A DNA stretch of 64,000 nucleotides from Actinomycetota bacterium. Its GTDB lineage: Bacteria > Actinomycetota > Nitriliruptoria > Nitriliruptorales > Nitriliruptoraceae. The notes below the pieces were generated by a model, which did no database searches, had not been told where the DNA came from, and saw only the letters and a program-made list of their open reading frames with translations. The translations under genes were made by a program, and so were the position numbers. The DNA lies in assembly GCA_019347575.1 (NCBI GenBank), contig JAHWKY010000014.1, positions 1-64,000 of the forward strand, written 5' to 3'. Below are positions 1-59,067 of this stretch, piece by piece; the first letter of the stretch is position 1, and every line of letters starts with the position of its first letter.

Positions 1-722
1 TCCCGCGGCTGATGGAGTCGGTCCAGGGCCACGTCGACGACACGTCGTACGCCGTGTTGAAGGGCCGGTCCAACTACGCCTGCCTGCACCGGATCCGGGA
101 GGGCGTGCCCGACGACCAGGGCACCCTCGTCGACATCCCCGAGGGCACGATGGGGGCCGACGTGCTCAAGCTGAGGGCGTGGGCCGAGGAGGAGGCCGAG
201 GCCGGCGGCACCGGCGAGCGCGACTGCGCGCCCCGGCACAACGAGCGGCTGTGGCGCCAGGTGTCAGTGAGCGCCCGCGAGTGCCTGGGCGCGGCGAAGT
301 GCCCCTACGGCCAGGAGTGCTTCGCCGAGCGGGCGAAGGAGAAGGCCGCCCGATCCCAGCTGATCGTCACCAACCACTCCCTGCTGGCGATCGACGCCAT
401 CGAGGGCGTCCCGATGATCCCGGAGTACGACGTCGTGGTGGTCGACGAGGCGCACGAGCTCGCCGCCCGGGTGACCCAGGCGGCCACCGACGAGCTGACC
501 GTCGGCGAGGTGGAGCGGGCCGCGCGGCGGTCCCAGCGGCACCTCGACGAGGGTGAGGCCGATGCCCTGATGGACGCCGCCAACACGCTCCGCGACGCGA
601 TCGCCGAGACCGCGCCCGGGCGGATCGACCGGAGCCCCGACCGGCTCGGTGACGCCCCGCAGCGCGTGCGCGACGCCGCCCGCGCCCGCCTGTCGGCCTT
701 CCCGCAGGACGGCGACGCCGAG
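1..722 (+). CDS. DinG/XPD-type ATP-dependent helicase, internal fragment (both ends missing)
   Basis: The reading frame is open to the left edge of the window, so the 5' end is missing. It carries the DinG-family motif KGRSNYACL near residue 18, a cysteine set around residues 77-103 (C-x-C pattern ending PYGQEC) like the Fe-S ligands of DinG/XPD helicases, the conserved VTNHSLL, and a DEAH box (VVVDEAHEL) near residue 145. Family members are superfamily 2 DNA helicases acting on replication or repair intermediates. Near position 722 the frame passes without a stop into a CobT-like sequence, so helicase motifs IV-VI are absent. The fragment as it stands cannot be a working helicase. The family call is firm; whether the truncation is biological or an assembly error is not decided. 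Confidence 0.8.
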
Positions 723-981
723 ATGCGCGCCGAGCAGACGGACGAAACCGCCAATGAGAGCCAGGCGGCAGAGGATTATGAGCCGGGCGAGGACGAGCTC
801 GCGGAGGCCGATGAAGCCAGTGACAGCGGCCGGCCGGGCCAGACCCGGCGCAACTGGGAGCTGGCACCGCCAACCGACTACAAGGCGTTCACGACCCGCT
901 TTGACGAGATCGTCGAGGCTGGCGAACTGTGCGACGAAACCGAGCTCAACCGGCTCCGCACCTATCTCGACCAGCAGATCG
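723..981 (+). pseudogene. CobT (aerobic cobaltochelatase) internal fragment, foreign-looking
   Basis: In the same frame as the preceding helicase piece. An acidic linker (residues about 238-280 of the joint frame) is followed by [20 protein letters not shown] and [12 protein letters not shown], which match the start of the conserved C-terminal half of proteobacterial CobT (family form: Y-K-V-F-T-T-x-F-D-E, then L-C-D-E-E-E-L-x-R-L-R-x-Y-L-D-K-Q-L). CobT works with CobN and CobS to insert cobalt into hydrogenobyrinate diamide. The metal-binding VWA domain that should follow is missing: homology ends at about 981 where a reversed stress-protein gene begins. Codon choice (GAA, GAT, AAT, TAT) is less GC-biased than the neighbours. 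It is best read as a chimeric or transferred fragment, not a gene. Confidence 0.7.
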
Positions 982-1679
982 GCGCGCTCGTCGGTCGAGA
1001 CCCGGACGAGGACCTCGGCGGGTGCTCCGTCGTCACCCCGGCGGGTCGAGGTGACCCCCGCCTCGGCGGCGACATCGGAGGCGCGCGACAGCACCTCGTC
1101 ATCCCCCCCAGCGTTGACGATCACGATCTCGGCACCGTCCTCGGCCGCGACACCAGCGGCACGCCGCAACGCCTCGAGCGAGGTGTCCGAACCGTCCACG
1201 CCGACGACGACGCGCTGGTACGGCGTCAAGGGCCCGCCGTGATCCGCGCGTTCGCGATGCACCGCATCGCTCGTGTGGACGATGAGCACGTCGGTCGGGG
1301 CGTGGTGCGCGAGTTCGTGAGGGACGCTGCCGCGGGCGCGCTGCACGCGCGAACCGAGGCCGACGTTGCCCACGACGACGAGGTCAGCGGAGGTGGTCCG
1401 GGCGACCTCGGCGATCGCGTCGACGACCTTGCCTTCGACGAGGTGAGTCCGGACCTCGAGATCGTCGTAACGCTTCTGCACACCGGTGAGAGCGCCGCGA
1501 CCGACCTCGCCGGGGTTGGCACCGGACTCGGCGAAGGGCCCGCCTGACGACTTCGCCGGCCCGTACGCGAACACCGCGTGCAACGTCGCTCCGTGCCGGC
1601 GGGCCAGCATCGCGGCCCGCTCCTCGGCACGCATCGCGGTCGAGGACCCATCGGTCGCGACGAGGATCACATCGAACAT
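968..1679 (-). pseudogene. Universal stress protein, two UspA domains, truncated in the second
   Basis: Starts at an ATG at 1679 with GGGGAGG about 9 bases upstream. Domain 1 (residues about 1-145) opens MFDVILVATDGSSTA and closes with the ATP-site signature [20 protein letters not shown] and VLIVHTS. A second UspA domain starts at [20 protein letters not shown] but stops at [10 protein letters not shown], just where the G-x2-G-x9-G nucleotide loop should come. Beyond about 968 the frame is only the antisense of the CobT and DinG pieces. Such tandem stress proteins are normally about 280-300 residues; this one keeps about 235. It converges on a breakpoint shared with the plus-strand fragments, with a short microhomology (about ACCAGCAGATC) at the joint. 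Confidence 0.8.
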
Positions 1680-1825: not shown

Positions 1826-3442
1826 TTGCCCTCCCTCCGCCTGCGCCCGTGGCAGAAGGCTGCGCTCGAACGGTTCCACGCCACCGCGAGCACGGATTTC
1901 CTGTGCGTCGCGACGCCCGGAGCGGGCAAGACCACGTTCGCGCTCACCGCGGCGGTGCAGGATCTCGCGCTCAACCCGCACCAACGGGTGATCGTGGTCA
2001 CCCCGACGCAGCACCTCAAGGCGCAGTGGGCCGCAGCGGCCGGGCGGTTCGGGCTCCAGCTGCATCCGACCTGGGCGCCTCGTCACGGCGGACTGCCCGC
2101 GGACGCCCACGGCATCGTGACCACGTTCCAGCAGATCGCGTCCGCAGCGGCCGCCGTCGCCCCGATGGCGACCGACGCGTTCGTGATCCTGGACGAGGTG
2201 CATCACGCCGGCGACGAGCGCGCCTGGGGGGACGGGCTGCGCCGCGCGTTCGCCGCGGCGGGGCGCCGGCTCTCGGTCTCCGGGACGCCGTTCCGCTCGG
2301 ATACCAACAGCATCCCCTTCGTGCGGTACGAGGAGGAGGAGGCGGTCGCGGACTTCAGCTACGGGTACGGCGACGCTCTCGACGACGGCGGCGTGGTGCG
2401 CCCCGTCTTCTTCCCGCGGATCGATGGCCACATGGAGTGGAGTGCCCCGGACGGCTCGCTGCACAGCCACAGCTTCGATGACGTGGTGACCAACGAGGTC
2501 GCCAGCCAGCGGCTCCGCACGGCGCTGTCGCCCGACGGCGAGTGGCTGCCGACGGTCCTGCGACGAGCGCACGAACGGCTCCTCGAGCTCCGACGGGACC
2601 ACCCGGAGGCCGCCGGGGTGGTGATCACGACCGACCAGGAGCACGCCCGCGCGGTGAGTCGGATCATGCGCCAGCGTCTGCGCGTTCGGCCCGTGGTCGC
2701 GACATCCGACGACCCGAGAGCCTCAGGCCGCATCTCTGGCTTCGCCGCCGGTACCGAACCCTGGATCGTCGCCGTCCGCATGGTCTCCGAGGGCGTCGAC
2801 ATCCCGCGGCTGCGGGTGGGCGTCTACGCCACCTCGACCTCCACGGAGCTGTTCTTCCGTCAGGCGGTGGGTCGACTGGTGCGGTGGATCCCCGGGATGC
2901 CGCGCCAGAAGGCGTTCCTGTTCGTCCCCGACGATCCGCGGTTCCGCGTCCTCGCGCACCACATCGCCGAGGAGCGGCGGCACAGTCTCCGCAAGCGCCA
3001 GGAACGGATGGATCGCGAGCGTGATCCCGACCTGGTGACGGCCACCGTCGGCGAGGATGGCCAGCTGGCCATGTTCGAGGTGATCAGCGCGGTGGCGCTG
3101 GGCGAGGAGGAGACGTCGATCTTCTCCGATCGCCACCGCGAGGACCTCGTCCACCTCGATGACCTGACCTACGATCCCGACCTCGAGATCGCGCTCACGC
3201 CTCCCCCTCTGCCGGACGGGTCGGTGCACATCGGTGACGCGGCGCTGCACGACGAACGCGATCGACTCCGGCGGGTCAACCAGGACCGCGTCGCCATGCT
3301 CGTGTTGCTTACCGGCGAGGACCACGCCACCGTCAACGCCACCTTGAACCGCGAGACCGGCATCCGGTCCGTCGCGGAGGCCACGGTCGGACAGCTCGAC
3401 AGGAGGGTCCACCTGGCCGACCGCTGGCTCGCCCGTCTCTGA
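1826..3442 (+). CDS. Superfamily 2 DEAD/DEAH-box helicase (restriction-subunit-like)
   Basis: A 538-residue protein with Walker A ATPGAGKTTF near residue 30, motif II DEVH (VILDEVHHA) near residue 123, motif III SGTPF and a C-terminal helicase lobe with SEGVDIPRLR and RQAVGRLVRW (motif VI) near residue 350. The fold is that of the UvrB/ResIII-type helicase core, with a charged C-terminal extension of about 150 residues that I do not recognise. The TTG start at 1826 has GGAG 9 bases upstream and gives a sensible N-terminus directly before the Q-like motif LRPWQKAAL. It stands alone between the broken stress gene and fdhD. Role in DNA repair or defence is unknown; no methylase or nuclease partner is adjacent. 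Confidence 0.85.
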   Translation: MPSLRLRPWQKAALERFHATASTDFLCVATPGAGKTTFALTAAVQDLALNPHQRVIVVTPTQHLKAQWAAAAGRFGLQLHPTWAPRHGGLPADAHGIVTTFQQIASAAAAVAPMATDAFVILDEVHHAGDERAWGDGLRRAFAAAGRRLSVSGTPFRSDTNSIPFVRYEEEEAVADFSYGYGDALDDGGVVRPVFFPRIDGHMEWSAPDGSLHSHSFDDVVTNEVASQRLRTALSPDGEWLPTVLRRAHERLLELRRDHPEAAGVVITTDQEHARAVSRIMRQRLRVRPVVATSDDPRASGRISGFAAGTEPWIVAVRMVSEGVDIPRLRVGVYATSTSTELFFRQAVGRLVRWIPGMPRQKAFLFVPDDPRFRVLAHHIAEERRHSLRKRQERMDRERDPDLVTATVGEDGQLAMFEVISAVALGEEETSIFSDRHREDLVHLDDLTYDPDLEIALTPPPLPDGSVHIGDAALHDERDRLRRVNQDRVAMLVLLTGEDHATVNATLNRETGIRSVAEATVGQLDRRVHLADRWLARL

Positions 3443-34905: not shown

Positions 34906-36852
34906 ATGGTCTCGCTGCCCCTCGAACAACCGGCGTTCGTGTTCGCGGTGCTGTTCGTGGCCATCCTCGTCGCCCCGCTCGTCGCGGAACGCCTCCGAGC
35001 CCCAGGTCTCATCGGCTTGCTCCTCGCCGGAACCCTGATCGGACCGGCTGGCCTGGGACTCGTGGCACGCGGTGGTGTCGTGGAGTCACTCGGGGCCGTT
35101 GGACTGCTGTACCTGATGTTCGTGAGTGGCCTCGACCTCGACCTCGATGGGTTCGAGGAGTACCGCCGTGACTCGGTGCTCCTCGGCGTCCTGACGTTCA
35201 TCGTCCCCGCGGTGGCTGTCGTCACGCTGGCGTTGGCGTTCGATCTGCGGTTCGCGGCGGCGGTGATGATCGGCTCCGCCTTCACCAGCCACACGCTGCT
35301 GACCTACCCTGTCGTGCAGCGCTTCGGGATCGTCCGCAACCGCGCCATCACCGCGACGCTGGGAGCGACGCTGCTGTGCACGGTGGCGGCGTTGCTCATG
35401 CTCGCGGTCGCTGCCGCCGCCGGTACCGGGTCGTCCGACCTCGGATTCTGGGTGGGCTTCCCGATCGGTCTGCTCACGTTCGGCGTCGTCACCCTGATGG
35501 GTCTGCCACGACTGACGCGATGGGTGTTCAGGGGGGTCGGACAGGACCGCGCGGTCAGGCTGACGTTCGTGCTCGCCGCGATGTTCGCGCTGTCGGCCAC
35601 GGCCGATCTCGTGAACATCGAGCCGATCGTCGGTGCGTTCCTCGCTGGGCTCGCCGTCAACCGGTTCGTCGGCGAAGGCACCACCGTCCGCGAGCGGCTC
35701 GACGTGCTCGGATCCGCGCTGTTCATACCGCTCTTCCTCATCTCGACCGGGATGCTCATCGATCCGATCTCGGTCGCGACGAACCCGAGGACGCTGGCGA
35801 TGGGGGCGGCGTTCACCGGCGCGACGCTGCTCTCGAAGTCGCTGGCAGCGTGGTCGACCGCCCGCCTCCTGGGCTTCGACCGGAACGAGCTCGGGATGAT
35901 GGTGTCGCTCACGGTCGGGCAGGCGGCGGGAGCCCTCGCGGCAGTCATCGTCGCGTCGGATCTCGGACTGGTGGGTCAGGAGGTCGTGGATGCGACCGTG
36001 CTGGTGATACTCGTGACGGCCCTCGTGGCCGCACTCTCGGCTCAGCACTTCGCACCGCGGGTTGCGGTCCCCCCCGTCCGCGTGCGTGGGCTCGGACAGC
36101 GTGTCGTCGTCCCGGTCGCGAACCCGCACACCGCGGGACCGCTCGTGGAGCTCGCGGGGCTCGTCGCAGGTGCGGACCACGGCGCCGTCGTGGCGGTCAA
36201 CGTCCTCGATCATGCGGCTTCGCCGCACGAGGTCGATGAGCACCGGAAGGTGACCGCCGAGGCGGAGCGAGCGGCCCTGCGGGTGGGAGCGGAGGCGGTC
36301 AGTCTCGTCCGGATCGATGCCAGCCCCACGGCTGGTGTGCTCCACACGGTGGTCGAACATGCAGGCACGAGCATCCTGATGGGTTGGACCGGCCACACCA
36401 ACCGACGAGAGGCGTTCTTCGGCAGCATCATCGACGCGGTCATCGCCCGGGCGTCCGTGCCGGTACTCGTCGCACATCCGGGTAGCGATGGCGAGATCCG
36501 GCGGGTCGTGCTGTCGCTGACGTCCTACGACCTCACGATCGAGGGTGAACGGACGCTCGAGCTGACCCGCGATGTCGCCACACGGCTCGCCACTCAGGCC
36601 GGAGTTCCACTGCTCGTCGTCGGGCCGGAGCCACCCGAGCGCCTGCGAGCGCTGATCGCGAACGAGCGCCAACGAGGAGTGGAAGCGGTGCACGATGACC
36701 GGGCGCAGACGGTGTCCCTACGCGACCACACCGGCCCCGGTGACCTGGTCGTGACTGGCGTGCCTCCGACCCGAGGCCGGCTCGCACGGCGTGCGCTGCG
36801 GGTCGGACGCACCGTGCAGGACCGCACCCTGATCGTCGCCGTCCCGCACTGA
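34906..36852 (+). CDS. CPA2 cation/proton antiporter fused to universal stress protein domains
   Basis: A 648-residue protein. Residues 1 to about 385 form a Na+/H+-exchanger fold (LIGLLLAGTLIGPAGLGL; IEPIVGAFLAGLAVNRF; FLISTGMLIDP). From about 395, RVVVPVANPHTAGPLVELA starts a cytoplasmic UspA-like region with the motif ILMGWTGHTNRREAFFGSI near residue 490, then a second, weaker half. The MGW-G-x(6)-FGS-IDxV motif is a divergent nucleotide-site variant seen in antiporter-linked stress domains and also in the riboswitch-controlled gene at 57955. Likely a K+ or Na+ efflux system gated by a small ligand. Confidence 0.9.
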   Translation: MVSLPLEQPAFVFAVLFVAILVAPLVAERLRAPGLIGLLLAGTLIGPAGLGLVARGGVVESLGAVGLLYLMFVSGLDLDLDGFEEYRRDSVLLGVLTFIVPAVAVVTLALAFDLRFAAAVMIGSAFTSHTLLTYPVVQRFGIVRNRAITATLGATLLCTVAALLMLAVAAAAGTGSSDLGFWVGFPIGLLTFGVVTLMGLPRLTRWVFRGVGQDRAVRLTFVLAAMFALSATADLVNIEPIVGAFLAGLAVNRFVGEGTTVRERLDVLGSALFIPLFLISTGMLIDPISVATNPRTLAMGAAFTGATLLSKSLAAWSTARLLGFDRNELGMMVSLTVGQAAGALAAVIVASDLGLVGQEVVDATVLVILVTALVAALSAQHFAPRVAVPPVRVRGLGQRVVVPVANPHTAGPLVELAGLVAGADHGAVVAVNVLDHAASPHEVDEHRKVTAEAERAALRVGAEAVSLVRIDASPTAGVLHTVVEHAGTSILMGWTGHTNRREAFFGSIIDAVIARASVPVLVAHPGSDGEIRRVVLSLTSYDLTIEGERTLELTRDVATRLATQAGVPLLVVGPEPPERLRALIANERQRGVEAVHDDRAQTVSLRDHTGPGDLVVTGVPPTRGRLARRALRVGRTVQDRTLIVAVPH

Positions 36853-57954: not shown

Positions 57955-59067
57955 GTGACCCTCGGAACCACGATCGTCGTCCCGATCGCCAACCCGTCGT
58001 CGATCCGACGGCTGCTCGAGATGGCGGCGCCGATCGCCGCGCCCGACGCGGGACGCGTCGTACCGCTCACCGTCTTGCGCCCCGATGCGGATGCGGATGA
58101 GCGGGCGCACGCCTGGCGTGGCCTGGCTGACGCCGAAGCCTTGGGGCAGGAACTGGGCATCTCCGTCCGAGGCCGCGTCATCGAGTCGTCCGATGTCGCC
58201 AAGGGCGTCCTCGAAGCGATGGGGGAGCTCGAGGCGACGCTGGTCGTGATGGGCTGGCGCGGTCGCAGCTCCACGAGCAACATCTTCGGCGTGCTCATCG
58301 ACACGATCGTCGGTCGCTCGGCGGTGCCGCTGGCGGTGGTGCGGCTGGGCACCGAGCCGGTACGTCGGATCGTGCTGCCGGTCAGCGCCGACCACCTGCT
58401 CCCCGGCGGTGGCCGGGGGCTCGGACTCGCTGCCGAGATCGGTCGCCGGTTGGATGCGGCGTCTCCCGAACCGATGACCGTGCTGCGCACGGGACCGCGT
58501 GAGGTCGAGCTGCCCGAGGAGGTCGAGCGTCTCGCCGACCGCGTGCATCACGACCCCCGCCGCACAGACGATGCCGTCGGAGCGTTCGCCCGCCCCGACG
58601 ATGCCGTGGTGGCGGCGGTCGCCCCGACCGTGTCGGGACTGCGCGCGGCCACCACCCACCTCGCCTGGTCGGCTCCGGAGTCGACGCTCGTCGTCGCGAT
58701 CGACGTGGGCCCCACTCCCCAGGATGGTCTCGCGTCAGCCGTGGAAGGGGCGGGGCGGCCCGCCCCGCGCCAAGCCGAGCAGCCGGTAGGGCGCACCGTG
58801 CGGATCGTGGTGACCGCCCGGATGCCGGATCAGAGCTCGACGCGAGCCGACGATCTCGAACGGGTGCTTCGGGGTGCCGGGGCGACCGAGCACGTGATGG
58901 CGTGGTGGCCCGCATCCGATCCGCATCCGCACGTGCGGGCGACGGTGACCGTGCGAGCATCGTCGGTGAACGCGGCGATGTCCGCGGTCATGGTCGCGGT
59001 GCACGAGGCGCCGGCGTTCCGGGGCGCCGAGATCAGCTACGACGTGGACCGCGCGAGCCAGCTCTGA
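57955..59067 (+). CDS. Universal-stress-domain protein under c-di-AMP riboswitch control
   Basis: A 370-residue cytosolic protein. Residues about 1-130 form a UspA-like domain (TTIVVPIANPSSIRRLLEMA; LVVMGWRGRSSTSNIFGVLI; VGRSAVPLAVVRLG); residues about 130-245 a second, degenerate one (RRIVLPVSADHLLPGGGRGL); the rest includes a basic linker and an extra alpha/beta region. The MGW-G-x-S-x4-I-F-G motif is the same variant as in the antiporter-fused domain at 34906. GTG with GAGGAG upstream. Likely a K+-homeostasis regulator that is tuned by c-di-AMP. Confidence 0.82.
   Translation: MTLGTTIVVPIANPSSIRRLLEMAAPIAAPDAGRVVPLTVLRPDADADERAHAWRGLADAEALGQELGISVRGRVIESSDVAKGVLEAMGELEATLVVMGWRGRSSTSNIFGVLIDTIVGRSAVPLAVVRLGTEPVRRIVLPVSADHLLPGGGRGLGLAAEIGRRLDAASPEPMTVLRTGPREVELPEEVERLADRVHHDPRRTDDAVGAFARPDDAVVAAVAPTVSGLRAATTHLAWSAPESTLVVAIDVGPTPQDGLASAVEGAGRPAPRQAEQPVGRTVRIVVTARMPDQSSTRADDLERVLRGAGATEHVMAWWPASDPHPHVRATVTVRASSVNAAMSAVMVAVHEAPAFRGAEISYDVDRASQL

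Follow-up and report, generated by a model that had tools for sequence, protein, structure and literature searches.

Chimeric DNA is known to arise both when DNA is amplified and when it is assembled. More than 70% of the chimera junctions formed during MDA used 2–21 complementary bases (PMC1855051), and chimeric-contig misassembly is an acknowledged, relatively rare error in MAGs (PMC8201837). The start of contig C14 resembles both kinds. As in MDA and library PCR chimeras, unrelated pieces are joined at short complementary stretches, and the overlaps at its two joints (about 11 bases at joint 1; 8–12 bases, at most 22, at joint 2) agree with the range given for MDA (PMC1855051). As in misassembled interspecies contigs, several organisms are represented in one contig, here of a draft genome with an estimated contamination of 4.59%, and the structure lies at a contig end, the place least supported by an assembly (compare the contigs in PMC8201837). 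It also differs from the MDA chimeras of the single-cell study, which were mostly inversions within one genome (PMC1855051), whereas C14 joins three organisms; an amplification chimera would therefore need a mixed template. We consider it highly probable that the chimera formed by the first ≈980 bases of C14 is an artefact.

The window, i.e., the whole stretch of DNA analysed, comprises 64,000 nucleotides and starts at base 1 of C14, which is 119,805 bases long. The draft genome consists of 4.89 Mb in 120 contigs and is 98.77% complete. The three-part structure makes up the outermost ≈980 bases at the start of C14 and thus represents the extreme contig terminus. The initial annotation had described a joining of three gene fragments (DinG, CobT and, in reverse, UspA), and all three could be identified close to where it had placed them:

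1–721, + strand: internal piece of a helicase gene (DinG/YoaA type) originating from another class of actinobacteria (NCBIfam YoaA, E 4.2e-27)
711–721, no strand: joint 1, about 11 bases fitting both dinG and cobT, GGCGACGCCGA (from homologue comparison)
711–979, + strand: internal piece of cobT (cobaltochelatase subunit), Sphingomonas type (TIGR01651 positions 251–334 of 600)
968–989, no strand: joint 2, fitting cobT as well as the stress protein gene in reverse orientation (from cobT relatives and the ADLLV motif)
968–1679, − strand: two-domain universal stress protein gene, native to the contig and truncated in the second Usp domain (Pfam Usp, E 1.7e-36, two stretches)
1826–3442, + strand: DEAD/DEAH-type helicase gene, native, adjoining the stress protein gene (best matches in its own family)

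The reading frame of the DinG piece is open from base 3 and has no start, as the contig begins inside the gene. The piece also lacks the C-terminal helicase domain. Its similarity to intact homologues at the DNA level ends at 703–722, and the intact homologues continue (SAYPKES...DADPGRTQA...VQEVF) at the place where the window switches to CobT. Within the organism's own class, the 61 genomes searched (its own and those of relatives up to class level) gave a match to the piece in 9, its own among them, with no more than 38% aa identity. The best match in the phylum sample (65%) was to genome G256 from family f60, which belongs to another class and which we tentatively take to be Nocardioidaceae. 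Nearly all genomes of this family (326 of 342) match the piece in DNA, with up to 81% identity; a near-identical source genome for the DinG piece was not found, 81% being the best DNA identity. No Helicase_C_2 domain could be recognised anywhere in the genome's assembly, and the other half of dinG is therefore absent from it. The Helicase_C_2 domain (DinG/XPD-type) thus went unrecognised throughout a 98.8%-complete genome, and few genomes of the class hold relatives of the DinG piece. The lineage may commonly be without DinG-type helicases.

Similarity to CobT starts at 711–720 (GDAEMRAEQ...) and stops at 979–989 (YLDQQ...). Only genomes of the Sphingomonas type and other proteobacterial genomes match the piece. 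The six best genomes all belong to Sphingomonas or Sphingomicrobium (52–63% aa identity), which bears out the earlier suggestion of an alphaproteobacterial origin. Over the aligned parts the DNA identity is 80% to L035 and 84% to L037. Among the 398 genomes of the nearest genome's family no near-identical source was found above the known 80%, a weak negative, as two candidates per genome were scored. A second CobT was not found in the genome.

The stress protein gene starts at 1679 and is read on the opposite strand. Its first Usp domain is complete (1275–1679), while the second is partial (1110–1220) and ends after ADLLV; the fit to the family is lost at about 968–972. The outer genes had been described as truncated, and this holds for both: DinG is without its C-terminal part and the stress protein stops in the middle of its second Usp domain. 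No separate piece with the missing C-terminus of the stress protein was recognised elsewhere in the genome. Two more stretches with Usp domains are found on the + strand of the window (36097–36474 and 57970–58344), and a further Usp pair lies beyond it on C14 (97409–98200).

The helicase next to the stress protein gene has up to 61% aa identity within the organism's own family, compared with 49% in the sampled f60 genome. It is thus closest to the own family, and the right-hand side is therefore native, in sharp contrast to the origin of the DinG piece. A separate comparison of the pieces, as proposed in the initial annotation, thus gave a different taxonomic source for each of them, namely f60 for DinG, the Sphingomonas type for CobT and the own family for the right-hand helicase.

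The third-position GC content is 0.979 for DinG, 0.839 for CobT, 0.860 for the stress protein and 0.900 for the helicase. The codon use of CobT is less GC-biased, as noted earlier, although its value is near that of the stress protein. DinG departs more, and in the opposite direction. As the pieces are short, composition is regarded as supporting evidence only.

Both joints could be placed by comparison with homologues. On the dinG side of joint 1, the dinG of L082 is identical to 708–721 at the homologous place. On the cobT side, the relatives align from GDAEMR onward, and L034 is identical over 718–737. The upper limit for the shared stretch is about 17–18 bases. At joint 2 the overlap is certain for 972–979 (8 bases), likely for 968–979 (12 bases) and at most 968–989 (22 bases), the stress-protein side being judged solely from the conserved protein motif ADLLV. 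All cobT relatives have ATG at 978–980, where the window has ATC. The microhomology of about 11 bases previously reported for the second joint is hence present there, with 8 certain and about 12 likely bases, but it is not confined to this joint, as about 11 bases are also shared at joint 1. When such sequences were joined at random, the two sides shared a run of 11 or more bases in 1–3 of 100,000 trials and one of 8 or more in 3–4 of 10,000. Since such long shared runs are rare at random joints, the joining was very probably guided by short identity.

Microhomology at both joints is also compatible with end joining in a living cell. DNA from an alphaproteobacterium and from another actinobacterial class might have been joined by true illegitimate recombination into the organism's own stress protein gene, and illegitimate recombination in cells leaves microhomology too, which counts against an artefact. 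Both foreign pieces, at least the cobT piece, are also smaller than typical uptake fragments. It would, however, take two independent donors from different phyla whose DNA came together inside 270 bases and right at the end of a contig; this end cuts the dinG piece, the other half of which is nowhere in the assembly. The whole 1.7-kb stretch was also searched for in 41 relatives, the initial annotation having suggested a search for the same three-part arrangement, and only short partial matches and no comparable arrangement were found. With two phyla, a contig end and the missing remainders of the broken genes, such a double capture is far less likely than an artefact, and we regard it as improbable. 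Less probable still, to the point of being hardly credible, is a real fusion gene, with a single protein made from the frame 3–1547 (DinG, CobT and the stress protein gene in antisense). The frame does stay open across both joints over 514 codons. Yet at ≈71% GC long frames often arise by chance, and the window has 82 with a length of 250 aa or more, many of them overlapping on opposite strands. Past ≈990 the frame simply runs antisense to the stress protein gene, and Pfam recognised no domain in the frame as a whole. The phylum's homologues of DinG are full-length and of the ordinary DinG kind, and a DinG-CobT fusion was rejected on these grounds.

An artefactual chimera accounts for the three lineages, the truncated genes with remainders unaccounted for in the assembly, the microhomology at both joints and the terminal position. 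The initial annotation had favoured such an artefact, and the three sources, the microhomologous joints and the contig terminus support this reading, short of proof. The genuine sequence of C14 would break off within the gene for the universal stress protein, around base 968–989. Beyond it, a piece of ≈270 bases of cobT from a Sphingomonas-type bacterium would have been attached via a short shared sequence, and next to this, again via a short shared sequence, ≈720 bases of a dinG whose source is an actinobacterium outside the organism's class. The sample would have been a mixed one, and the joining may have happened when its DNA was amplified, when the library was made or at the assembly step. 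Against an artefact we count that the best source identities in DNA are only 81% (DinG) and 84% (CobT).

The certain overlaps of 8–11 bases are also short for a purely computational joint. The k-mers usually used for assembly have a length of 21 or more. The certain overlaps are below this length; the maximum at joint 2 (22 bases) would be sufficient, while that at joint 1 (about 17–18 bases) would not quite be. Because common k-mer sizes exceed the certain overlaps, a physical chimera (amplification or library) is mildly favoured over a computational one (graph collision).

For the 18 longest contigs, the terminal 3 kb on either side were compared with one another. The start of C14 overlapped none of the other contigs; the matches in this comparison were repeats, not tails. 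In the same genome, the right end of C12 (L138) and the left end of C7 (L116) are near-identical over the first ≈300 bases and then diverge, giving an overall similarity of 73% across ≈1.1 kb. These two ends represent a repeated or paralogous gene where the assembly broke.

The three-part end of C14 is thus almost certainly no real biological feature. For quality control, bases 1 to about 990 of C14 should be trimmed or flagged. Unless this is done, the organism would be credited with a dinG and a cobT that are foreign to it and with a spurious fusion protein of 514 codons, and the start of C14 could be misread as horizontal transfer or taken for a trace of aerobic cobalamin synthesis.
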